DNA from: an uncultured Gellertiella sp.
GTDB taxonomy: Bacteria; Pseudomonadota; Alphaproteobacteria; Rhizobiales; Rhizobiaceae
DNA: 64,000 nt
Direction: 5' to 3'
Assembly (NCBI RefSeq): GCF_963457605.1
Contig: NZ_OY735139.1
Location: 2,200,001-2,264,000, forward strand
The translations under genes were made by a program, and so were the position numbers. The notes below the pieces were generated by a model. The model saw only the letters and a list, made by a program, of their open reading frames with translations, was not told the origin of the DNA and ran no database searches. Shown piece by piece: positions 39,157 to 53,799 of the stretch (positions within the stretch are counted from its first letter, which is position 1; every line of letters begins with the position of its first letter).

Positions 39157-40101
39157 ATGTTGAAGCCGTTCGACTGGGATCTTCTCCGTTCCTTTCTGGC
39201 TGTTGCCCGCAGCGGAAAGCTGACCACAGCCGCGCGGCGGCTGAAAGTTGACCATTCTACACTGTCGAGGCGGATTGCGGCACTTGAATTCGCGTTGAAA
39301 ACCAAGCTCTTCGACAAAAGTCTGAACGGCTATGCGCTGACGCTCGACGGCGAGCGGTTGCTGGCCGAGGCCGAACGGGTGGAATCCACCGTCATCGGCA
39401 TCCAGAACGACATTGCCGCCGAAAGCACGCAAGTGTCCGGAACCGTACGGATCGGAACCCCCGACGGCTTCGGCACACGCTTCCTCGCAGCGCGCATCGG
39501 CGCGCTTTGCGCACGGCATCCGCATCTTGACGTCGAGCTGGTGGCAACCCCCCGCAGCTTCAGCCTGTCGAAGCGCGAGGCCGATATCGCCATCGGGCTG
39601 TCCAATCCCCACCATGGCAAGCTGCACACGCAGAAACTGACCGATTACGAACTCGGCGTCTATGGCGCGGCGGAAGGCGCGGAGCGCTTCGGCGACATCG
39701 CCGACCCCCAGGATCTGCAGCGCAGGCCCTTCGTCAGCTATATAGACGACCTGATCTTCACGCCGGAACTCGACTATCTCCCGCATGTCGCAAGAGCGCT
39801 TGCGCCGAGGCTGAAAAGCTCCAACCTGCTGGCCCAGGCGGAAGCCATAGCGTCCGGCGCGGGCCTTGGCGTCCTGCCCTGCTTTCTCGCAGATGGCGAT
39901 CCCCGTCTGATCAGGCTATTGCCCCACAAAGTGCGGTTGGTGCGCAGTTTCTACATGAGCGTTCACGCGGATTTGCGCGATCTCGCCCGCCTGAAGGCAA
40001 CCACTGGCTTTATTGCCGACATAGTCCGCACCGGAAAAGTTATATTTCTACCAAAATCCGTCGCAGATCACACAAAAATGATAAAATCCCATATTGACTG
40101 A
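39157..40101 (+). CDS. LysR-family transcriptional regulator
   Basis: 314 aa from ATG 39157 with AGGA upstream. The N-terminal winged HTH is clear (LLRSFLAVARSGKLTTAARR, LKVDHSTLSRRIAALE). The effector domain (about 95-300) contains SGTVRIGTPDGFGTRFLA and the usual two-lobed pattern. It faces the isobutyryl-CoA dehydrogenase operon, so it may control it, although valine catabolism is more often under other regulator types. The reading frame runs into an AT-rich end. Confidence 0.9.
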   Translation: MLKPFDWDLLRSFLAVARSGKLTTAARRLKVDHSTLSRRIAALEFALKTKLFDKSLNGYALTLDGERLLAEAERVESTVIGIQNDIAAESTQVSGTVRIGTPDGFGTRFLAARIGALCARHPHLDVELVATPRSFSLSKREADIAIGLSNPHHGKLHTQKLTDYELGVYGAAEGAERFGDIADPQDLQRRPFVSYIDDLIFTPELDYLPHVARALAPRLKSSNLLAQAEAIASGAGLGVLPCFLADGDPRLIRLLPHKVRLVRSFYMSVHADLRDLARLKATTGFIADIVRTGKVIFLPKSVADHTKMIKSHID

Positions 40102-40233
40102 CTTGACAAATAAAATGGAACACGGGCATTTCGGCGCATACATACAATTTTGATGCCTGATAACCGTGGGGGATCCGCCGCATTCGTGCAGCGGAGGGGA
40201 CGTCCGTAGGCGGAGCAGGCCGGGGAGGGTTGG

Positions 40234-43887: not shown

Positions 43888-44574
43888 TCAGGCCACAGAA
43901 ACCCTGGCGATCGGGCCGGATGCGGTAAAGTGCTTGGGAAACAGCGCGGCCACGGCGGTAAAGGCGGTGCGCATCGCGTCTTCGTTCGAATAGGGATTGG
44001 TCATGGTGATGAGGTCGAGCCAGATGCCTTCCAGAAGGATCCGGATCACCCGCGCGGCATCACGGGCATTGACGGCATAGCCGCCATCCTCCGCCAGACC
44101 GGTGCAGAAACGCTCCAGCGTTTCGGCATATTCGATGTCATTCGAACCGCACATTTCCTGATAGACCGGACGGCCCTGCGCCTCGCCCCAGAAGGCGCAC
44201 CAGGCGGCCAGCCGGTCCGGCGTGCAGACCACCTCGTTGAAATCGGCCCTGACCATGGCGGCAAGCTTTTCCGCCGTGTCGTCGGGCGCTTCCTCCACCG
44301 ACTTGACCCAGTTTTCGCGATATTCCTGCGCCAGGAACAGCAGCGTATCGGTGAGCAACTGGTCCTTGGTGTTGAAATGGAAATTGATCAGCCCATGCGA
44401 AAGCCCTGCCGTCGTCGCCACCTCTGTCAAGGTCGTCTTGGCGTAGCCACAACGACCAATGGTAATGATCGTAGACTCGATCAACTGCTGGCGGCGGGCA
44501 TCGCGGCTCGCCTTGCGTGGCAAACTGTCAGGCATTTTTGGCTTCAAAGTCTTGTCCATGGTCCGGTCCCGCAT
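43888..44574 (-). CDS. TetR-family regulator, BetI-like
   Basis: 228 aa. The N-terminal HTH reads RRQQLIESTIITIGRCGYAK and LTEVATTAGLSHGLINFHFN, close to BetI, the choline-responsive repressor; the C-terminal ligand domain (about 90-210) includes WCAFWGEAQGRPVYQEM, also BetI-like. It lies alone on the minus strand and faces the aminotransferase gene, across a 212-bp gap with repeated palindromic sites. A repressor answering to a quaternary or onium-type ligand is plausible. Confidence 0.88.
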   Translation of the reverse strand: MRDRTMDKTLKPKMPDSLPRKASRDARRQQLIESTIITIGRCGYAKTTLTEVATTAGLSHGLINFHFNTKDQLLTDTLLFLAQEYRENWVKSVEEAPDDTAEKLAAMVRADFNEVVCTPDRLAAWCAFWGEAQGRPVYQEMCGSNDIEYAETLERFCTGLAEDGGYAVNARDAARVIRILLEGIWLDLITMTNPYSNEDAMRTAFTAVAALFPKHFTASGPIARVSVA

Positions 44575-44657: not shown

Positions 44658-44705
44658 TTGACAACATAGTCAAAATAACATTCTGATTATCAACACAGTC
44701 AAAAT
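44658..44705. promoter_or_regulatory. Candidate TetR operator, palindrome plus direct repeat
   Basis: TTGAC-N6-GTCAA at 44658-44673 is a perfect inverted repeat. A 15-bp sequence, CAACATAGTCAAAAT (44662-44676), returns 29 bp later as CAACACAGTCAAAAT (44691-44705). Both lie between the divergent TetR and aminotransferase genes, as expected for an autoregulated repressor controlling both. Confidence 0.6.
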
Positions 44706-44786: not shown

Positions 44787-46133
44787 ATGACGACTCTCAA
44801 GCCCCGCAACCTGACCAAGTCCAACGAGCAGTATCAGCGCGCCGTCAAGCGCCTGCCGCTCGGCGTCTCCTCCACCTTCCGTTACTGGGGCGATGACCGC
44901 ACCATCTACGTGAAGCACGGCAAGGGCGGTCGCACCTGGGACATCGATGACAATTGCTACGTCGATTACCGTCTCGGCTACGGCCCGGCCATTCTCGGCT
45001 ACGCCGACGACCGCGTTGATGCCGCTGCCCGCAAGGGCATGGAAGTCGGCGGCGTCTTCGCCCTGTCGACCGAGCGCGAACTGATCGTTGCCGACCGTAT
45101 CGCCAAGATGGTTCCGGCCGCCGAACTGGTGCGCTTCTCCAACTCCGGCACCGAAGCGGTGATGGCCGCCCTGCGTCTCGCCCGCGCCCATACCGGCCGC
45201 GACAGCTACCTGCTGGTCGAAGGCGGCTACCATGGCCTGTTCGACGCGGCCATGTGGATGTCGAACGTTGACGAATGGGACAAGAATTCCAACCAGGATC
45301 CGGAAGTCATTTCCTATTCCAAGGGCATTCCGCAGACCCTGAAGGCACTGGCCCATGTTGTCCCGAACAACAACATGCAGCGCCTCGAAGACACCTTCAA
45401 GAAGCACGGCCATAGCCTGGCCGCCATGCTGATCGAGCCGATCCAGGGCAATTGCTGCTCGATCATGGCTTCGGTCGAATATGTCAAATATGCCCGCGAA
45501 CTTTGCGACAAGTACGGCGTGCTGCTGATCATCGACGAAGTGAAGTCCGGCTTCCGCGTCGGCAAGGGCGGCATCCAGGGCATCTACGGCGTCAAGCCCG
45601 ACATCACCACCTTCGCCAAGGCCGTTGCCAACGGCTACCCGATTGCCGTCGTTGCCGGCAGCGAGAAGGTCATGCGCACCTTCAAGTACGGTGGCGCAGC
45701 CCATGGCGGCACCTACACCGCCCATTCGGTATCGCTGGCCGCTGCTGAAGCCTGCCTGCAGATCCTCGACGAGACCCCGGCGCTCGAAACCATCGCCAAC
45801 TATGGTGAAGCGCTGAAGAAGGGCCTCTCCGAGATCCTCGACCGTCGCAACATCGTGCATTCCTACACCGGTCATCCCTCGATGTTCGGCCTGTTCTTCG
45901 CCGACAAGGCGCCGGACAACTATCGTGAATGGAAGAAGTCGGACTACTCCTTCTATGACACTATGGCCTATCACCTGCACGATCTCGGCATCATCTGCGA
46001 GCCCGACAGCCGCGAGCCCTGGTTCATCTGCGAAGCCCATGACGAGAGCTGCCTGAAGGACACGCTGAAGGCGGTCGAAATCGCTGTCGATCTGACCCTC
46101 GAGCAGATCGAAGCCGAGAAGAAGGCCTCCTGA
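44787..46133 (+). CDS. Class III PLP-dependent aminotransferase
   Basis: 448 aa from ATG 44787 with AGAGG upstream. PLP motifs include RFSNSGTEAVMAALRLARAH near residue 130, the Asp in LLIIDEVKSGFRVG near 250 and the Schiff-base Lys in TTFAKAVANGYP near 275. Sequence style is close to glutamate-1-semialdehyde aminomutase and beta-amino acid aminotransferases. Codons are strongly biased to C-ending and few rare ones, more than in the neighbours, suggesting high expression. It probably deaminates the amine produced or imported by this locus. Confidence 0.92.
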   Translation: MTTLKPRNLTKSNEQYQRAVKRLPLGVSSTFRYWGDDRTIYVKHGKGGRTWDIDDNCYVDYRLGYGPAILGYADDRVDAAARKGMEVGGVFALSTERELIVADRIAKMVPAAELVRFSNSGTEAVMAALRLARAHTGRDSYLLVEGGYHGLFDAAMWMSNVDEWDKNSNQDPEVISYSKGIPQTLKALAHVVPNNNMQRLEDTFKKHGHSLAAMLIEPIQGNCCSIMASVEYVKYARELCDKYGVLLIIDEVKSGFRVGKGGIQGIYGVKPDITTFAKAVANGYPIAVVAGSEKVMRTFKYGGAAHGGTYTAHSVSLAAAEACLQILDETPALETIANYGEALKKGLSEILDRRNIVHSYTGHPSMFGLFFADKAPDNYREWKKSDYSFYDTMAYHLHDLGIICEPDSREPWFICEAHDESCLKDTLKAVEIAVDLTLEQIEAEKKAS

Positions 46134-46356: not shown

Positions 46357-47472
46357 ATGAGATTTATGACGCGCCGGCATTGCCTCGCATTGCTGGGCTC
46401 CATAGGCTTTGGCGCATTGTCCGCCCCCTATGTCCGCAAGGTGCGCGCCGATGATCAGGTCCTCAACGTCTACAACTGGGCCGATTATATCGGCGAGACG
46501 ACGATCGAGGATTTCCAGAGCAAGACCAATATTGCCGTCACCTATGATACCTATACGTCGAGCGACGAGATGCAGGCCAAGATGCTGGCCGGCACCACCG
46601 GCTACGATGTGGTCAACATGTCCGGCCTGTCGATGCGGACCTTCAACAAGGCCGGGATTTTTGACGAACTTGATCGTTCGCGGCTGAAAGGCTGGTCCAA
46701 TCTCGACCCCGCGATTCTTGCCCTGCTGGGGGCCTGGGACACGGGCAACAGGCACGGCATTCCCTATATGTGGGGTTCTGTCGGCTTTGCCTATAATGTC
46801 GACATGATCAAGAAGCGCCTGCCCGATGCGGATCTCGAATCGCTCGACATCCTGTTCAAGCCCGAAAATGCGGCCAAGCTTGCCGACTGCGGCATTTCCA
46901 TGCTCGACAGTTCCACCGACGTGCTGGAAATGGGCCTGCGCTATCTCGGCAAGGATGGCGACAGCCGCAGCGTCGAGGATTACAAGGCCGTTGCCGACCT
47001 CATCGCAAAAATCCGGCCCTCGATCCGGACATTCGACAATGCCAACTATGTCAACGCCCTGCCGAATGGCGAGCTGTGCCTGGTCAACAGCTGGTCGGGA
47101 GACTATTCGACCGCCAAAGCGCGGGCAAAGGAGGCGGGCATCACTGTCAATCTCGCCTATTTCGTGCCCAGAACCGGGGCACCCGTCTGGATCGATACCC
47201 TGTGCATTCCCAGGGATGCCAGCAACAAGGGGGCGGCCTACAGCTTCCTTGATTACATGCTGCAGCCCGAAGTGATTGCCAAATGCTCGAATTTCACCAA
47301 CTATGCAAACGGCAATCTGGCATCGAGGGCATTTCTCAAGCCTGAGGTTCTGGCCAATCCGGCAATTTATCCGACGGCTGAGATCATGAAGCGTCTTTGG
47401 GCACCAAAGCCGTTGACCGAGCAGCAGGATCGGGACATCACCCGGATCTGGAACGATATCAGGACGAGTTAG
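46357..47472 (+). CDS. PotF/PotD-like ABC substrate-binding protein
   Basis: 371 aa. The N-terminus MTRRHCLALLGSIGFGALSA with a twin Arg and hydrophobic stretch looks like a Tat-type or Sec signal, cleaved after VRADD. The mature start VLNVYNWADYIGETTIEDFQ is the signature of spermidine/putrescine-type binding proteins. The ligand may be a polyamine, or another cation such as an onium compound. It has a GGGAG site before the ATG and heads a four-gene importer unit. Confidence 0.92.
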   Translation: MRFMTRRHCLALLGSIGFGALSAPYVRKVRADDQVLNVYNWADYIGETTIEDFQSKTNIAVTYDTYTSSDEMQAKMLAGTTGYDVVNMSGLSMRTFNKAGIFDELDRSRLKGWSNLDPAILALLGAWDTGNRHGIPYMWGSVGFAYNVDMIKKRLPDADLESLDILFKPENAAKLADCGISMLDSSTDVLEMGLRYLGKDGDSRSVEDYKAVADLIAKIRPSIRTFDNANYVNALPNGELCLVNSWSGDYSTAKARAKEAGITVNLAYFVPRTGAPVWIDTLCIPRDASNKGAAYSFLDYMLQPEVIAKCSNFTNYANGNLASRAFLKPEVLANPAIYPTAEIMKRLWAPKPLTEQQDRDITRIWNDIRTS

Positions 47473-47522
47473 GTGATCGAAATGCAGAAAAACGGTTTCA
47501 CGACATCAGGAGCAGCGTGAGT

Positions 47523-48644
47523 ATGACGGGCATGACAGAAACTAAACCGGCGCCTTTCATCCGTATTGACGGCGTCACCAAGAAATTCGGCGAATTCACC
47601 GCCGTCGACAATGTCACGCTCGATATTGAAAAGGGCGAGTTCTTCGCCCTGCTCGGCGGGTCCGGCTGTGGCAAGACCACCTTGCTGCGCATGCTGGCCG
47701 GGTTCGAGACGCCGACCAGCGGACGGGTGTTCATCGACGGCCAGGACATGACCGAGGTGCCACCCTATGACCGGCCGGTCAACATGATGTTCCAGTCCTA
47801 TGCGCTCTTCCCGCATATGACGGTCGAAAAGAACATCAGCTACGGCCTGAAGCACGAAAACATCTCGCAGAAGGAGCGCGAGGAACGGGTGCGCGACATT
47901 CTCGAGCTGGTCCGGCTGACACCGCTGGCCGGCCGCAAGCCGCACCAGATCTCCGGCGGCCAGCGCCAGCGCGTGGCGCTTGCCCGCTCACTGGTCAAGC
48001 AGCCGAAGCTGCTGTTGCTCGACGAGCCGCTCGGCGCGCTTGACAAGAAACTGCGCGAACATACCCAGTTCGAACTCGCCAATATCCAGGACAAGCTCGG
48101 CATCACCTTCGTGGTGGTGACCCATGACCAGGAAGAGGCGATGACGCTTGCGTCCCGCATCGCGGTAATGGACAAGGGGCTGGTCAAGCAGATCGGCACC
48201 GCCTCCGGCATCTACGAATTCCCGGCGAGCCGCTTCGTGGCGGGCTTCATCGGCTCGATCAACATGTTCGACGGCACGGTGACGGCAGTCGACAACGACA
48301 TCGCGACGGTTGACGTCCCGCAGCTCGGGGCTGTCGTCAAGGGCCGCGCGGACCCGTCGATCCAGAAGGGTGCAAACCTCTCCGTCGCCGTTCGCCCGGA
48401 AAAGATCCGCATCAGCCGCGAAGCGCCCGCCGATGACAGCATCAACAACATTCCCGGCGTGGTCCAGGATCTCGGCTATTTCGGCAAGGATTCGCTGTAC
48501 CGGGTCAAGCTCGCCAACGACACGATCCTCTCGGTCAACAGCGTCAATGACCGTCGCGGCGGTGAAAACGAGCGTGTGGCCCAGTGGGAAGACAAGGTTT
48601 GGCTGCATTTCGAACCCTCCTCCGTCATCCTGCTGCAGGAGTAG
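47523..48644 (+). CDS. PotA-like ABC ATP-binding protein
   Basis: 373 aa from ATG 47523; GTG 47517 and ATG 47532 are alternatives. Walker A GGSGCGKTT near residue 45, signature ISGGQRQR, Walker B LLLLDEPLGALD and switch VVTHDQEEAMT are complete. The C-terminal TOBE-like domain contains VAVRPEKIRIS. It follows the binding-protein gene by 50 bp and precedes the permease gene by 4 bp. Confidence 0.95.
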   Translation: MTGMTETKPAPFIRIDGVTKKFGEFTAVDNVTLDIEKGEFFALLGGSGCGKTTLLRMLAGFETPTSGRVFIDGQDMTEVPPYDRPVNMMFQSYALFPHMTVEKNISYGLKHENISQKEREERVRDILELVRLTPLAGRKPHQISGGQRQRVALARSLVKQPKLLLLDEPLGALDKKLREHTQFELANIQDKLGITFVVVTHDQEEAMTLASRIAVMDKGLVKQIGTASGIYEFPASRFVAGFIGSINMFDGTVTAVDNDIATVDVPQLGAVVKGRADPSIQKGANLSVAVRPEKIRISREAPADDSINNIPGVVQDLGYFGKDSLYRVKLANDTILSVNSVNDRRGGENERVAQWEDKVWLHFEPSSVILLQE

Positions 48645-48648
48645 GCCG

Positions 48649-49602
48649 ATGAGCATCGAATCCCACGACGCGTCCACCAGACGCAGCGCGCTTGCCAACT
48701 GGTTCAACGAGAAGGGCTGGCGGCAGATCATCATCTATCTGCCGTTCTTCTGGCTGTTCCTGTTCTTCTTCCTGCCCTTCATCATCGTGCTGGCGATGAG
48801 CATCGCGATCCGAACCGGCACATCCCCACCGTTTTCCTTCATCACGGTGGCCCCCTTCATCAACACGGCGAATTTTGCGCGGCTGTTTGAAGACAGCCTC
48901 TATATCCGCGCCTTCCTGACCTCGCTCTACAATGCGACGACGGCGACCGTGCTGTGCCTGCTGGTCGGTTATCCCATGGCGCTCGGCCTTACCAGGGTCT
49001 CCTCCAGCTGGCGCAATATCCTGCTGATGCTGATCATCCTGCCGTTCTGGACCTCGTTCCTGTTGCGCGTCTATGCCTGGATCGGGCTGATGGGATCGAA
49101 CAGCTGGTTCAACAGGCTGCTGACCGCAATCTATAATGTGGTGGTGCCGCAGGCCTCGCAGCTCGATCATATCCAGATGATGAACACCAATTTCGCGGTG
49201 GTTCTCGTCATGGTCTATTCCTACCTGCCGTTCATGATCCTGCCGCTCTACGCCAATCTGGAGAAGCTCGATTCGACCCTCAACGAGGCGGCGATGGATC
49301 TCGGTTCCCGGCCTTTCCAGGTGTTTCGCGACATTACCCTGCCGCTTTCCGTGCCCGGCATCATCGCCGGCGGCCTGCTGGTCTTCATCCCGGCTTCCGG
49401 CGAACTGATCATCCCGAGCCTTGTCGGCAGCGCCTCGGATCCGATGATCGGTCGGGTGATCAGCGACGAATTTGCCTCGGCGCGTGACTGGCCGATGGCC
49501 GCGGCCGTCGCCGTTGCCCTGCTGATCCTGCTGGTCGGGCCGACGATGCTCTACAACCATTTCGACGCCAAAGCCCAGGCGGGCCTGGAGAAGAACCCAT
49601 GA
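48649..49602 (+). CDS. PotB-like ABC permease
   Basis: 317 aa with six predicted membrane segments (starting at IIIYLPFFWLFLFFFLPFII). The EAA loop reads LNEAAMDLGSRPFQVFRDIT near residue 215. A roughly 60-residue segment after the first helix faces the periplasm, as in PotB. The stop overlaps the next permease gene (ATGA). Confidence 0.94.
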   Translation: MSIESHDASTRRSALANWFNEKGWRQIIIYLPFFWLFLFFFLPFIIVLAMSIAIRTGTSPPFSFITVAPFINTANFARLFEDSLYIRAFLTSLYNATTATVLCLLVGYPMALGLTRVSSSWRNILLMLIILPFWTSFLLRVYAWIGLMGSNSWFNRLLTAIYNVVVPQASQLDHIQMMNTNFAVVLVMVYSYLPFMILPLYANLEKLDSTLNEAAMDLGSRPFQVFRDITLPLSVPGIIAGGLLVFIPASGELIIPSLVGSASDPMIGRVISDEFASARDWPMAAAVAVALLILLVGPTMLYNHFDAKAQAGLEKNP

Positions 49603-50438
49603 ACAAGAAACCGCTGTTTCTTTATACCTGTCTTTGTTTCGGCTTCGCCTTCTTCTATGTGCCGATCCTGTCGATGATCTTCTTCTCGTTCAACCGGTCG
49701 CGGCTGGCGACCGTCTGGGGCGGCTTTTCGGTCGAATGGTATGGCAAGCTGTTCCACAATGAGCAGATTTTCCATTCGGCCATGCTGTCGCTGGAAATTG
49801 CACTGCTGAGCGCCACGTTTGCCACGATGTTCGGCACGCTGGCCGGGGTCGCGCTGTCGCGGTTCAAGCGGTTTCGCGGACGGACCATGCTCACCGGCTT
49901 CGTCACCGCGCCGCTGATCATGCCCGAAGTCATCACCGGCATTTCGATGCTGATGATGTTCATCCTGATGGCGTCATGGATCGGCTGGCCGGAAAAGCGC
50001 GGTTTCACCACCATCACCATCGCCCACATCACCTTCTCGCTGACCTTCGTGACGACAATCGTCCAGTCACGCCTGTCCTCGACCGATATTTCCGTCGAGG
50101 AAGCCGCGATGGATCTCGGCTCGAAGCCCTGGCAGGTGCTGAAGGACATTACGCTGCCGATCATCTCGCCCGCCATCATGTCCGGCTGGCTGCTGGCTTT
50201 CACCATTTCGCTCGATGACGTGGTGATCACCAACTTCACCTCCGGCCCCGGCACCACGACCCTGCCGATCCTGATCTGGTCGAAGGTGAAGCTCGGCGTG
50301 ACGCCTGACATCAATGCGCTGGCAACGATCATCATCTCGGTCGTCGCCGTCGGCGTGACGATCACCGGCATCGTCATGCAGCGCCAGGAAAAGCGCCGCG
50401 AGCGCGATATCCAGATGGCCATCCGCGCCAACAACTGA
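49599..50438 (+). CDS. PotC-like ABC permease
   Basis: 279 aa with about six membrane segments (LFLYTCLCFGFAFFYVPILS first). The EAA loop reads VEEAAMDLGSKPWQVLKDIT near residue 165. Together with the previous permease it forms the membrane channel of the importer. A terminator-like hairpin follows within 10 bases of the stop. Confidence 0.94.
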   Translation: MNKKPLFLYTCLCFGFAFFYVPILSMIFFSFNRSRLATVWGGFSVEWYGKLFHNEQIFHSAMLSLEIALLSATFATMFGTLAGVALSRFKRFRGRTMLTGFVTAPLIMPEVITGISMLMMFILMASWIGWPEKRGFTTITIAHITFSLTFVTTIVQSRLSSTDISVEEAAMDLGSKPWQVLKDITLPIISPAIMSGWLLAFTISLDDVVITNFTSGPGTTTLPILIWSKVKLGVTPDINALATIIISVVAVGVTITGIVMQRQEKRRERDIQMAIRANN

Positions 50439-50443
50439 TTTTG

Positions 50444-50466
50444 ACCGCCCCGCAAGGGGCGGTTTT
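50444..50466 (+). terminator. Terminator or attenuator after the importer genes
   Basis: ACCGCCCC-GCAA-GGGGCGGT (50444-50463) is a perfect 8-bp stem with a tetraloop, followed directly by a short T run. It lies between the second permease and the cupin gene, so distal expression of cupin and acuI may be reduced or come from a separate promoter. Confidence 0.7.
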
Positions 50467-50506
50467 CCTTGCCCTCCTGATCTGCCCTGAAAGGAGCATC
50501 GCCCCG

Positions 50507-51184
50507 ATGCCCGAGAATGCACTTCGTCGCCTTGTTGGCGAGATTCACCAGTATCTCACGAAATTTCCCGGCGACGGGATTGCCGATGTGCGCGCCGGCA
50601 TCGAACGCTACCGCGACGGGCCGCAGCAGGTACGGACGGCGCGTCAGACCCCGGTGCTCCAGCACCTAGCGCGTGCGCTTGAGGTCACGGCCCAGCAGGG
50701 CGAACCCGGCCTTGCCGAGGCGATCCGGGCGGCTGCCCCGCATCTCGAGTGGATCACCTACAATGCCTATGGCCCCGAGCAGATCGGTGCCGGATTTGCA
50801 AATGGGCATGCCTTTGCCACGCTGCTGGGCGAGGAGGGCGCATTCTTCGCCAAGGATTTTGACATGGGCATCTTCCTGATCGAGCCCAACATCTTCTATC
50901 GTGACCACAAGCACCAGGCACCCGAACTCTATGCGCCGCTCACCGGCCCGCATGGCTGGCGCTTCGAGCCGGGTGCCGCCTTCGAATGGCTGGAGGCCAA
51001 TGTTCCGGTCTGGAATGTGCCGAACCGGCCACATGCGACGATCACCGGCAGCGAACCGTTCCTGTGCATCTTCTGCTGGACCAAGGATGCCTGGGAGCCC
51101 GCCTATATCATTCCTTCGGATGACTGGGCGGCGATTGACACGGCGCTGGCCAACGGAAACCGTGACGCGATACCGGTCGTCTGA
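50507..51184 (+). CDS. Cupin of the DMSP-lyase family (DddL/DddQ-like)
   Basis: 225 aa from ATG 50507 with AAAGGAG upstream. The C-terminal cupin (about 115-215) shows the metal motif RDHKHQAPELYAPLTG, where two His, a Glu and a Tyr match the family pattern HxHx3ELY, followed by a second motif with His in VPNRPHATITGSEPFL. The N-terminal helical part (about 1-110) also fits this family. Known members cleave dimethylsulfoniopropionate to dimethyl sulfide and acrylate. Next to an AcuI-type reductase and a cation importer, it may release acrylate from an onium propionate; the exact substrate is not shown. Confidence 0.75.
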   Translation: MPENALRRLVGEIHQYLTKFPGDGIADVRAGIERYRDGPQQVRTARQTPVLQHLARALEVTAQQGEPGLAEAIRAAAPHLEWITYNAYGPEQIGAGFANGHAFATLLGEEGAFFAKDFDMGIFLIEPNIFYRDHKHQAPELYAPLTGPHGWRFEPGAAFEWLEANVPVWNVPNRPHATITGSEPFLCIFCWTKDAWEPAYIIPSDDWAAIDTALANGNRDAIPVV

Positions 51185-51222
51185 CCCGGCGGCCCATCCA
51201 TTCCAATTCAAGGAGCATTCCC

Positions 51223-52212
51223 ATGACGACATTCCGTGCCATGGTCATCGATCAGGTTGACGGCAAGCCGAAGGCAGGCATTCGCGAGCTGACGCTTGCC
51301 GACCTCCCGGACAATGACGTGCTGGTCAAGGTCGAGTATTCGACCCTCAACTACAAGGACGGCCTGTCGATCTCCGGCAAGGGCCGCATTGCCCGCAAGT
51401 TCCCGATGGTGGCCGGTGCCGATCTTGCCGGAACGGTGGTCGAAAGCCGCTCGCCCGACTGGAAGGCCGGCGACAAGGTCGTGGTCAATGGCTGGGGCAT
51501 GTCGGAAACCGAATGGGGCGGCTATGCCGGTTACCAGCGCGTCAAGGCCAGCTGGCTGACCCGCCTGCCCGGGGCCTTCACGCTCGAACAGTCGATGGCG
51601 ATCGGCACCGCCGGTTACACCGCAGCCCTCTGCGTCAACGCGCTCGAAGACTGGGGCGTGATCGAAAAGGGCGGCAAGGAAGTGCTGGTCACCGGAGCCG
51701 CCGGCGGTGTGGGCTCGGTCGCCGTGGCGCTGCTTGCCGCGCGCGGCTACACCGTCACCGCCTCGACCGGTCGTCCCGACACCCATGACTATCTGGCCTC
51801 GCTGGGTGCCAGCGCCTTCATCGACCGTGCCTCGCTCGCGGAAAAGGCAGGACCGCTGCAGAAGGAGCGCTGGGCTGGTGCCGTGGATTCGGTCGGCACG
51901 ACCACGCTTGCAAATGTGCTGGCGCAGACGGTCTATGGCGGTGCGGTGGCGGCCTGCGGTCTCGCCGGTGGTTTCGACCTGCCGACGACGGTGATGCCGC
52001 ATATTCTGCGCGGCGTTGCCCTGCTCGGCGTCGATTCGGTGATGGCGCCTGCGGCAAAACGCGACCGCGCCTGGGCGCTGCTCGCCGAAAGCCTTGACAG
52101 GGACAAGCTTGCCGCGATGACCACCGTCGAACCGATGGACAATCTGCCTGCGCTTGCCGACGCCATCATGGCTGGCCAGACCCGTGGCCGGGTGGTGATC
52201 AGGATCGCCTGA
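51223..52212 (+). CDS. acuI: Acryloyl-CoA reductase / quinone oxidoreductase, AcuI-like
   Basis: 329 aa with AAGGAG before the ATG. It is a zinc-free medium-chain dehydrogenase: YSTLNYKDGLSISGKG near residue 40, the NADPH motif VTGAAGGVGSVAVALL near 155 and ASTGRPDTHDYL. The pattern ALEDWGVIEKGGKEVLVTGA fits the YhdH/AcuI group, which reduces acryloyl-CoA to propionyl-CoA and protects against acrylate toxicity. It lies 38 bp after the DMSP-lyase-like gene. A general YhdH role cannot be excluded. Confidence 0.87.
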   Translation: MTTFRAMVIDQVDGKPKAGIRELTLADLPDNDVLVKVEYSTLNYKDGLSISGKGRIARKFPMVAGADLAGTVVESRSPDWKAGDKVVVNGWGMSETEWGGYAGYQRVKASWLTRLPGAFTLEQSMAIGTAGYTAALCVNALEDWGVIEKGGKEVLVTGAAGGVGSVAVALLAARGYTVTASTGRPDTHDYLASLGASAFIDRASLAEKAGPLQKERWAGAVDSVGTTTLANVLAQTVYGGAVAACGLAGGFDLPTTVMPHILRGVALLGVDSVMAPAAKRDRAWALLAESLDRDKLAAMTTVEPMDNLPALADAIMAGQTRGRVVIRIA

Positions 52213-52234
52213 TCCCGGGGCAAATCAAATCGGA

Positions 52235-52269
52235 AAGGGCGCGGGTCGACACCCGTGCCCTTTTCTTTT
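52235..52269. terminator. Rho-independent terminator after acuI
   Basis: AAGGGCGCGGGT (52235-52246) pairs with ACCCGTGCCCTT (52251-52262) with one G-T pair, loop CGAC, followed by TTCTTTT. It ends the acuI transcript and stands between two converging genes. Confidence 0.88.
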
Positions 52270-52284
52270 GTCCTGCTGCGATCC

Positions 52285-53769
52285 TCAGGAAAGGTCGATC
52301 CAGGCGGTCTTGAGATCTGAATATTTGTCCAGCGCATGCAGCGACTTGTCGCGCCCGAAACCGGATTGCTTGAAGCCGCCGAGCGGCACGGTGATGTCCG
52401 ATCCGCCATAGGTGTTGACATGCACGACGCCGGCATGGATCGCCCGCACCATCCGGTGGGCACGGGAGAGATTCGAGGTCCAGACGGCGGAGGCAAGTCC
52501 GAAATCCGTGGCATTGGCAAGCCGAACCGCCTCTTCCTCGGTCTTGAACGGGGTGACGGCCAGTACCGGGCCAAAGACCTCCTCGCGAAACAGCGTCATC
52601 CCGGGGCGCACGCCGGTGACGATGGTGGGGGCCATATAGGTACCGCCGGTCTCCACCAGGATGCGGCTGCCGCCGGAGAGCACCGCGCCGCCCTCCGCTT
52701 TCGCCTGTTCGACAAAGGCGAGATCCTTGGCCAGCTGGTCCTCGCTCGAGACAGCGCCGATATCGCTCGACAGATCAAGCGGATTGCCGATCCGGAATTT
52801 TGCTGCGGCGTCATGGAGTTTCTCGACGAAGGCGTCGTGGATGTCGTCCTCTACGAGGAGCCGCGAGCCTGCCACGCAGACCTGCCCTGAATTGCGGAAA
52901 ATGCCCGCCGCCGAGACCTTTGCCGCCCTGGCGAGATCGGCGGTGTCGTTGAAGACGATATTCGGCGACTTGCCGCCAAGCTCGAGAAAGACCCGCTTCA
53001 GGTTCGACTGGGCCGAGTATTGCATCAGCTGTCGTCCGACGCCGCCGGAGCCGGTAAACGCGAGCGCGTCGACATCCATATGCAGGGCGAGCGCCTTGCC
53101 GGTGATCGCGCCCTTGCCGGTGACCACATTGAACACACCCTCCGGCATGCCCGCTTCCAGGGCCAGTTCGGCAAGGCGGAGCAGGGAGAGCGAGGCGATT
53201 TCGGCGGGCTTCAGCACCACCGTATTGCCCGCGGCGAGTGCCGGTGCGACTTTCCACGCCCCGATCATCATCGGGAAATTCCATGGCACGATGGCACCGA
53301 CAACCCCGAGCGGCTCGCGATGCACCAGGGCCAGCACCTCCGGCACGGTCGGGGCAATCTCGTCATAGATCTTGTCGAGCGCCTCGCCATAATAGCGGAA
53401 GGTGCCCGCTGCTGAGAGCGGCTCGGCCTTCAGCGCCATGTTGATTTCGGTGCCATTGTCGCGCACCCCCAGCACCGCCAGTTCCAGCGCATGCCGCTCG
53501 ATGAGATCGGCGAGCTTCAGCAGCACCTTCTTGCGGAAGGCGGGACCGGAGCGTGACCAGGTGCCCTTGTCGAAGGCCGCCCGGGCGCTTGCCACCGCCG
53601 CATCGATGTCGCGCGCGCTGCCTGCGGCAATCGTGGTGAGATGCGTGCCGTCAATCGGGCTGGTCACGACAAGCTGCGCCTCGCCTTCGATGGACCTGCC
53701 GCCGATCAGATGACCGCGCGGGGCAATCGGCTCGGCGGCGAGGCTGTTGATGGCGTCCTGAGTGAGCAT
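52285..53769 (-). CDS. NAD(P)-dependent aldehyde dehydrogenase
   Basis: 494 aa from ATG 53769 with GGGAGGAA upstream. The catalytic Glu is in FLELGGKSPNIVF near residue 257 and the Cys in NSGQVCVAGSRLLV near 290; the cofactor segment AIVPWNFPMM is intact. It oxidises an aldehyde to an acid, probably the semialdehyde made by the aminotransferase of the facing operon. It is divergent from the IclR gene across a 224-bp gap with a perfect palindrome. Confidence 0.93.
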   Translation of the reverse strand: MLTQDAINSLAAEPIAPRGHLIGGRSIEGEAQLVVTSPIDGTHLTTIAAGSARDIDAAVASARAAFDKGTWSRSGPAFRKKVLLKLADLIERHALELAVLGVRDNGTEINMALKAEPLSAAGTFRYYGEALDKIYDEIAPTVPEVLALVHREPLGVVGAIVPWNFPMMIGAWKVAPALAAGNTVVLKPAEIASLSLLRLAELALEAGMPEGVFNVVTGKGAITGKALALHMDVDALAFTGSGGVGRQLMQYSAQSNLKRVFLELGGKSPNIVFNDTADLARAAKVSAAGIFRNSGQVCVAGSRLLVEDDIHDAFVEKLHDAAAKFRIGNPLDLSSDIGAVSSEDQLAKDLAFVEQAKAEGGAVLSGGSRILVETGGTYMAPTIVTGVRPGMTLFREEVFGPVLAVTPFKTEEEAVRLANATDFGLASAVWTSNLSRAHRMVRAIHAGVVHVNTYGGSDITVPLGGFKQSGFGRDKSLHALDKYSDLKTAWIDLS

Positions 53770-53799
53770 GGAGGGTTCCTCCCGGAGAGTTTTCGGCAT

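Follow-up and report, generated by a model that had tools for sequence, protein, structure and literature searches.

A PF16867 cupin between a PotF-type importer and acuI in an uncultured Gellertiella, and its possible place in a split amine-catabolic regulon

The cupin and the genes around it

The window considered here is a stretch of 64,000 nucleotides from an uncultured Gellertiella sp. (assembly GCF_963457605.1, contig NZ_OY735139.1, positions 2,200,001 to 2,264,000), in which a cupin of the dimethylsulfoniopropionate (DMSP) lyase family PF16867 stands between a polyamine-type ATP-binding cassette (ABC) importer and acuI, the gene of an AcuI-type acrylyl-CoA reductase (Table 1). The binding protein, ATPase, both permeases, cupin and acuI have the order and coordinates given in an initial annotation of the stretch, which had proposed as substrate DMSP, its nitrogen analogue beta-alanine betaine, or an amide or amine precursor, and the 38 bases that it counted between cupin and acuI are confirmed. 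The same annotation had placed a BetI-like repressor and an aminotransferase at the locus; both are found, but just outside the interval assigned to it (46357-52212), and BetI identity was rejected for the repressor, which scores 100.9 with the BetI model TIGR03384 (cut-off 201.3). The association of these genes is real and conserved and is larger than the window, and on the sequence evidence the favoured substrate class is an amine.

The cupin, whose ATG start at 50507 is preceded by AAAGGAG, scores 81.6 bits with the Pfam model DMSP_lyase PF16867 (cut-off 27) and has the DMSP-lyase-type metal motif that had been noted before (HKHQAPELY and a downstream His). In DddQ, six residues are reported to be essential, namely Tyr120, His123, His125, Glu129, Tyr131 and His163 (PMC4437653). 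All six are present in the window cupin, as Y133, H136, H138, E142, Y144 and H178 (227-residue numbering; minus 2 for the start at 50507). In an alignment of 82 cupins, made up of the window copy and 81 called in the named loci introduced below, Y133, R134, D135, H138, E142, Y144 and H178 are invariant and H136 is kept in 79. The AlphaFold2 model has a mean predicted local distance difference test score of 96.9 and retrieves DddQ structures as its top six Foldseek matches, followed by DddY and, further down, DddK. By sequence, too, the nearest solved relatives are DddQ-type DMSP lyases, and superposition on solved DddQ (4la2, 4b29, 5cu1) gives template modelling scores of 0.63-0.74 by query length, at 20-24% identity over the structural alignment.

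While Pfam family, fold and the six essential residues are common to DddQ and the window cupin, the latter has Tyr-Arg-Asp-His where solved DddQ proteins have Tyr-Asp-Trp-His, Tyr-Gly-Trp-His or Tyr-Pro-Phe-His, its Arg-Asp pair and its Trp-Arg-Phe run are not found in the three solved chains, and the operon in which cupins of its type are set brings together amine and N-demethylation genes. An unrooted tree was built from 50 PF16867 rows, three of them long, and in it the window cupin falls within a 19-row clade (support 97/91). This clade groups with cupins from the CoA-ligase operons of Leisingera and Phaeobacter (95/80), and 4la2, 4b29 and 5cu1 form a separate clade elsewhere (99/96). Phylogeny had been named by the initial annotation as a check on membership in the DMSP-lyase clade; the cupin lies outside the clade of the three solved DddQ proteins, which is a partial answer, as the tree comprises PF16867 rows without DddL, DddW, DddK, DddU and DddY. 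A demethylation cluster of Rhizobium etli holds a second cupin with a PF16867 annotation (L035:10334-11026), which is probably not an enzyme of the DddQ kind, because its metal ligands and both Tyr are lost in the alignment. In G247 (L042:5083-11546) two tandem PF16867-type cupins lie beside an iron alcohol dehydrogenase and an M24 protein that is DddP-like (413.7 of 600 bits). In a genome of the same genus as ours (L159) the cupin is 52% identical and adjoins a MarR-type regulator, with neither the PotF-type importer nor the aminotransferase in the 20 kb read.

The reductase scores 419.6 bits with TIGR02823 (cut-off 297.25) and 429.5 with the acrylyl-CoA reductase model NF051456, about 10 bits short of its cut-off of 440. 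Its gene is the single acuI match in the whole genome at E<=1e-30 and lies directly 3' of the cupin. The importer for a cation, a cupin whose DMSP-lyase-type active site is complete and, next to it, the one acuI that the genome search found all point to acrylate, and the acrylate reading first put forward in the initial annotation is plausible.

Table 1. Features of the cupin locus (coordinates are those of the window)
Feature	Coordinates	Strand	Basis or remark
BetI-like TetR repressor	43888..44574	-	divergent; PF13977/PF00440 above cut-off
Putative operator TTGACAACATAGTCAA	44658..44673	.	repressor-aminotransferase gap; half-sites TTGAC/GTCAA intact; 2 mismatches to TTGACWGNNCWGTCAA
Class III (GSAM-like) aminotransferase	44787..46133	+	PF00202
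PotF-type periplasmic binding protein	46357..47472	+	closest solved relatives are PotF chains
PotG/PotA-type ATPase	about 47523..48644	+	TIGR01187 399.7 bits, cut-off 355.6
Permease 1	48649..49602	+	PF00528
Permease 2	49599..50438	+	PF00528
Terminator-like hairpin, permease 2/cupin gap	50443..50466	+	9 pairs (7 G-C) at 50443-50464, -19.2 kcal/mol, z -3.68, short T run
PF16867 cupin, proposed acrylate-forming lyase	50507..51184	+	Pfam, active-site residues, AlphaFold2 model, Foldseek
AcuI-type acrylyl-CoA reductase	51223..52212	+	TIGR02823 above cut-off, NF051456 just below
Terminator-like hairpin 3' of acuI	52232..52265	+	15-pair stem, T tail, -27.7 kcal/mol, z -6.08
Aldehyde dehydrogenase (PuuC/BADH-like), possible partner	52285..53799	-	convergent; NCBIfam matches below cut-offs

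A conserved operon, its importer and two further loci of the genome

Relatives were collected by comparing an alignment of nine cupins with genome contigs, which gave 186 loci, the best 80 of which were kept and are referred to as the named loci; a query of the same contigs with a single cupin gave nothing. Because only the best 80 of 186 were kept, the sample favours close kin, and gene counts in it are lower bounds owing to contig ends and the 10 kb flank. All 80 have a called cupin; binding protein, ATPase, both permeases and cupin occur together in 60 of them, and the second permease stands immediately before the cupin in 60. Chance association is not an issue, since importer and cupin recur in this way. 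At least one GbcA-like Rieske gene is present in 67 loci, and importer, cupin and Rieske gene occur together in 59. Further partners are a GcvT-like gene (42/80), a second flavoenzyme (37/80), a first flavoenzyme (38/80; this one mostly cut by the 10 kb flank), an amidohydrolase (36/80), a methyltransferase (35/80), a TetR repressor (17/80) and an aminotransferase (7/80).

The fullest order is that of Fuscovulum ytuae, which comprises an aminotransferase, two CrtI-like flavoenzymes, a GcvT-like protein, two Rieske proteins, the importer, the cupin, an amidohydrolase and a methyltransferase. GbcA (NF058607) is the best match of the Fuscovulum Rieske proteins, but at scores of 151.3 and 127.7 against a cut-off of 670, and the GcvT-like protein reaches 259.5 bits with a trimethylamine N-oxide demethylase model and 226.3 with the GcvT model, both below cut-offs. 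With glycine betaine demethylation the operon shares the families of the GbcA Rieske protein and of the GcvT-type folate enzymes, but it differs from that system in the low Rieske scores and in possessing two Rieske proteins, two CrtI-like flavoenzymes, an aminotransferase and a cupin besides. By record title the carriers include Defluviimonas, Tabrizicola, Rhodobacter, Fuscovulum, Aestuariivirga, Rhizobium and others, and our impression is that many of the titles point to fresh water, waste water, sediment or soil. No relatives of the cupin were found among the viral contigs searched. As the initial annotation had supposed, the literature searched, with most subscription papers outside its reach, yielded no described system with this gene set.

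A small ChrR-type cupin (Cupin_7) follows the PF16867 cupin in several operons, for example at L137:11002-11364, and its family is present in 13 of the 80 named loci. In Leisingera, Phaeobacter and G256 (L033, L034, L045) the related cupins have an AMP-forming CoA ligase on one side and a hydratase/dehydrogenase with a thiolase on the other, adjoined in L034 and L045 by a betaine-type importer, a gene set that is a candidate pathway for omega-onium acids.

The importer had been called polyamine-type, a description in keeping with its binding protein, which aligns end to end with PotF and has 7oyv, a chain named putrescine-binding protein, as its best solved match (E 8.5e-92; this reference chain may be an engineered variant). 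The positions that we take to form the diamine ligand site of PotF were compared in a cluster of 66 binding proteins that includes the window copy. Eight of them are occupied by Trp (66), Asp (66), Tyr (66), Trp (66), Asp (63), Trp (66), Asp (65) and Tyr (66), and of the 11 positions compared the window protein keeps all of these eight. Of the pair of acid positions compared within the DDPEE run, the first-named has become Ser in 63 proteins, while the other has Asp in 65. The kept residues would speak for two positive charges in the ligand. With the putrescine importer PotFGHI the window importer has binding-protein family, eight putative ligand-site positions and gene set in common, but its partner is a catabolic operon and its binding protein scores 342.1 with the NCBIfam PotF equivalog model, below the cut-off of 636. 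Since the aromatic and acidic PotF-site positions are kept in 63 to 66 of the 66 proteins and the partners elsewhere belong to N-demethylation families, DMSP or beta-alanine betaine appears unlikely as substrate, and among the compounds proposed initially an amine precursor fits best.

Beside the window cupin there is no Rieske, flavoenzyme or GcvT gene of the operon kind; homologues are found elsewhere in the same genome, at two loci of contig C2 here called B and C. Locus B (C2:1976684-1985577) encodes Rieske2 (58% identity), the methyltransferase (54%), flavoenzymes FAD1 (67%) and FAD2 (42%) and GcvT (52%), together with a second class III aminotransferase and a TetR repressor (42%), and locus C (C2:1390299-1397736) encodes Rieske1 (45%), the amidohydrolase (47%), an NADH:flavin oxidoreductase and binding proteins (64% and 47%); identities refer to the Fuscovulum copies, those of the TetR repressor and the binding proteins to the window copies. 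Locus B is furthermore tied to the cupin by a domain found fused to it. Cupins longer than 262 residues (58 of 98 called) carry an N-terminal extension of about 57 residues, and an 81-residue open reading frame (ORF) behind gcvT of locus B matches the Fuscovulum version of this extension (E 1e-12, with 44% over 50 residues). A profile of the extension built from the 58 long cupins, with the ORF excluded, finds the reading frame that holds the ORF (E 1.2e-23); the printed stretch of that match is a side match, and the position of the ORF rests on the pairwise match. The same profile has no match in the cupin-less loci L139-L142 and L169-L175. A cupin remnant was rejected as an explanation of the ORF, which matches the extension and not the cupin domain. 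Another CrtI-like pair of the own genome (L158) and L160 have no further operon genes save a distant Rieske gene. On these grounds the window locus appears as one of three linked loci, which lies beyond the reach of any reading of the window alone.

The three loci may also be connected by a palindrome, TTGACWGNNCWGTCAA, that was derived from 12-base words common to the repressor-side gaps and the gaps of the three own loci. At up to one mismatch it has 21 sites in 2.14 Mb of fetched loci, compared with 1 for the reversed pattern, a count that includes the loci from which the motif came and some duplicates. Seventeen of the sites lie between the repressor and the first operon gene, two are those of loci B and C, one precedes an aminotransferase at the end of a stretch and one is intragenic. 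The palindrome is found in 14 of the 17 named loci with a repressor and, at the same tolerance, not in L111, L117 and L136, nor in the cupin-less L139-L142, nor in G186. The 4.17 Mb of the own genome hold two such sites, one each at loci B and C, the latter upstream of Rieske1, and none of the reversed control. At two mismatches the window has two sites (44658-44673 and 40094-40109) where 0.22 are expected, and two with intact half-sites where 0.03 are expected; for the window site it is the place in the repressor gap that counts. The repressor would bind these operator-like sites. The site at 40094-40109 lies just upstream of RpiR-amidase-beta-lactamase-fold genes, and the amidase may belong to the same regulon.

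The aminotransferase and an apparent exchange of cupin and CoA ligase

The window aminotransferase is 80% identical to the copy in the Fuscovulum ytuae operon, 90% to that of G228 and 77% to that of G186; its assignment as a GntE transaminase was rejected (NF041362 436.8, cut-off 525). G228 belongs to another family and has a binding protein of another type (25% identical). Its aminotransferase is 90% and its cupin 53% identical to the window copies, a difference that suggests gene exchange within the operon.

Orthologues of the aminotransferase were sampled at three taxonomic levels, with the own genome counted in each: the order gave 7 matches at 1e-100 in 297 genomes, the class 7 at 1e-170 in 385 genomes and the phylum 3 at 1e-170 in 398 genomes. 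In these samples and the named loci together, aminotransferase and cupin occur in eleven distinct loci, none of which has a close copy of the CoA ligase described next (G969 has a 29% identical one). Ten loci have the aminotransferase without a cupin in the stretch fetched, and eight of these, L139 among them, encode a CoA ligase of the ADP-forming kind with 47-69% identity to the copy of L139, while the other two (L141, L170) lie at contig ends. Fisher's test of this exclusion (8:0 vs 0:11) gives 1.3e-5, a figure that overstates the evidence, because four of the eight ligase loci are from one genus.

The nearest solved relative of the ligase is DddX (E 1.7e-81), whose catalytic base is reported to be Glu432 (PMC8163506). 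His292 and Trp391 of DddX are common to the ligases, the latter also to the remote G969 paralogue and hence not specific, but Tyr181 and Asp208 are missing in all eight, and Glu432 is a gap in each of them, for which an identification as DddX was rejected. It seems that cupin and CoA ligase can take each other's place in acting on a carboxylate. This would fit an acid intermediate behind the aminotransferase.

A possible route through acrylate and its rivals

Tentatively, and with somewhat less than even confidence, the window locus may be regarded as one of the three parts of a split regulon for the catabolism of an amine that is N-methylated, di-cationic and polyamine-like and that would be broken down via acrylate. 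The observations behind this proposal are the gene content, the active-site residues, the predicted fold, the operator-like sites, the conserved operon and the single acuI. From them we infer the substrate, the order of steps, the lyase activity and the leaving group as follows. The PotF-type importer would bring in the amine, and its N-methyl groups would be removed by the GbcA-like Rieske oxygenases and the flavoenzyme/GcvT pair, homologues of which are encoded at loci B and C. The class III aminotransferase would convert the freed terminal amine of an aminopropyl unit to an aldehyde. Oxidation by an aldehyde dehydrogenase, possibly the one encoded convergently, would then give an N-(2-carboxyethyl)amine, which corresponds to DMSP with nitrogen in place of sulfur; with aminotransferase and aldehyde dehydrogenase such an acid can arise from an aminopropyl amine. 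Aldehyde dehydrogenases are also found near the L086, L133, L139 and G969 copies. In the metal-dependent cupin, the metal-bound Tyr would take the alpha proton and the amine would be expelled by beta-elimination (retro-aza-Michael), leaving acrylate, which would be activated by a postulated ligase and converted by AcuI to propionyl-CoA. The invariant Arg-Asp pair that precedes the metal histidines of the cupin might line the site of the amine. The BetI-like repressor with its operator TTGACWGNNCWGTCAA would control the gene set.

The elimination step has a precedent in the reverse direction. A study on DddK, a cupin DMSP lyase, reports that the wild type adds secondary amines to acrylate, with Tyr as the proposed acid, and that primary amines are added best by the variant W26G (PMC12582016). 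Run backwards, this reaction would release acrylate and an amine from an N-(2-carboxyethyl)amine. Cupin chemistry that joins or splits amine and acrylate is thus common to DddK and to the proposal, but in DddK it is a promiscuous synthetic reaction, whereas for the window cupin the natural splitting direction is proposed.

Several observations weigh against this reconstruction. No acuI (E 1e-30) occurs in the stretches read of the 80 named loci, so that the link between cupin and acuI rests on this genome, and its absence elsewhere counts against the link being general. An aldehyde dehydrogenase is near only 2 of the 80 (E 1e-30), and four named loci (L062, L070, L103, L109) have neither importer nor Rieske gene in the stretches read. 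Related PF16867 cupins occur in demethylation clusters of Rhizobium and Shinella, which we take to resemble stachydrine genes, with no obvious need for a beta-elimination. In the importer, only 29 of the 66 binding proteins, the window copy among them, retain the Ser of PotF's ligand site. The exchange of cupin and ligase is no proof of elimination, since the ligase lacks the catalytic Glu of DddX. Between permease 2 and cupin stands the hairpin of Table 1 with its short T run, which a terminator pattern scan did not pick up, and because it separates the two genes a single uninterrupted transcript is not assured. As to the palindrome, the window site TTGACAACATAGTCAA has two mismatches, although its half-sites are intact; half-sites alone are weak evidence, as the genome contains nine of them and still five of the reversed pattern. 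The site at locus B lies between the second class III aminotransferase and the repressor and not before the flavoenzymes, and the count in the own genome is not fully blind, because the gaps used to derive the motif included those of loci B and C.

Some of these points feed the main rival explanation, a doubtful but serious one, in which the cupin is no acrylate lyase and instead carries out a different metal-dependent reaction linked to N-demethylation, whose substrate might, for instance, be an N-hydroxymethyl or N-formyl intermediate, with acuI adjoining by chance or serving another source of acryloyl-CoA. It would account for Rieske, GcvT and amidohydrolase genes being frequent in the named loci while acuI is found only here, and for the related PF16867 cupins that lie in NADH:flavin oxidoreductase clusters, accompanied in Rhizobium by electron transfer flavoprotein (ETF) and formaldehyde genes; it is harder to reconcile with a cupin that keeps all six DddQ catalytic residues, the metal-bound Tyr base included, and with the adjoining position of the only acuI found in the genome.

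The remaining explanations retain the elimination and change the substrate. If DMSP-amine (3-dimethylsulfoniopropylamine) or DMSP were catabolized, importer, aminotransferase and aldehyde dehydrogenase would lead to DMSP, the cupin would release dimethyl sulfide and acrylate, and the GcvT-like protein would be DmdA-like. Cupin and AcuI are the classical pair of such a pathway, the GcvT-like protein has a sub-cut-off score with the DMSP demethylase model (130.5 of 410 bits) and DddX is the nearest solved relative of the ligase in the cupin-less loci. However, the GcvT-like protein scores higher with the trimethylamine N-oxide demethylase and GcvT models, the GbcA-like Rieske genes are regular partners, the cupin lies outside the solved DddQ clade and the impression gained of the carriers' habitats also speaks against it, all of which makes this explanation improbable. 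Little credence is likewise given to the import of a zwitterionic betaine, such as beta-alanine betaine, and its cleavage to trimethylamine and acrylate: a repressor of the BetI kind, the GbcA-like Rieske partners and a cupin with AcuI would suit it, but the kept aspartates of the PotF ligand site would suit two positive charges rather than a carboxylate, and a route that releases trimethylamine needs no aminotransferase.

For the preferred amine route, N-methylated polyamines such as those of silica-forming algae could be a natural substrate, diatoms being a source of aminopropyl long-chain polyamines. Length and methylation of the long-chain polyamines of silica-forming algae are species-specific, and a freshwater-type synurid has them with aminobutyl units, according to one study (PMC12206195); because of these aminobutyl units, an aminopropyl substrate would need other algae. 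That such N-methylated aminopropyl polyamines are dismantled unit by unit on a new route, each unit being demethylated, transaminated, oxidized and then cut off at its C-N bond by the cupin through retro-aza-Michael elimination, with one acrylate per turn and the next amine exposed each time, seems unlikely to us; if true, acrylate would also be formed apart from the DMSP cycle, by a natural nitrogen branch of the DMSP-lyase fold. Cocamidopropyl betaine or dimethylaminopropylamine was kept only as a synthetic analogue of the substrate, since the operon looks too widespread for a recent xenobiotic.

Should the cupin split a C-N bond, it would constitute a biological source of acrylate without DMSP and a new step of amine catabolism, and the synthetic aza-Michael activity reported for DddK would have its counterpart in nature. 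Names such as 'DMSP lyase' may be used to infer DMSP degradation, which for this clade may mislead, because it appears to belong largely to an amine operon; in public plasmid records of Fuscovulum and Mesorhizobium, members of the clade are annotated as 'dimethylsulfonioproprionate lyase family protein'.

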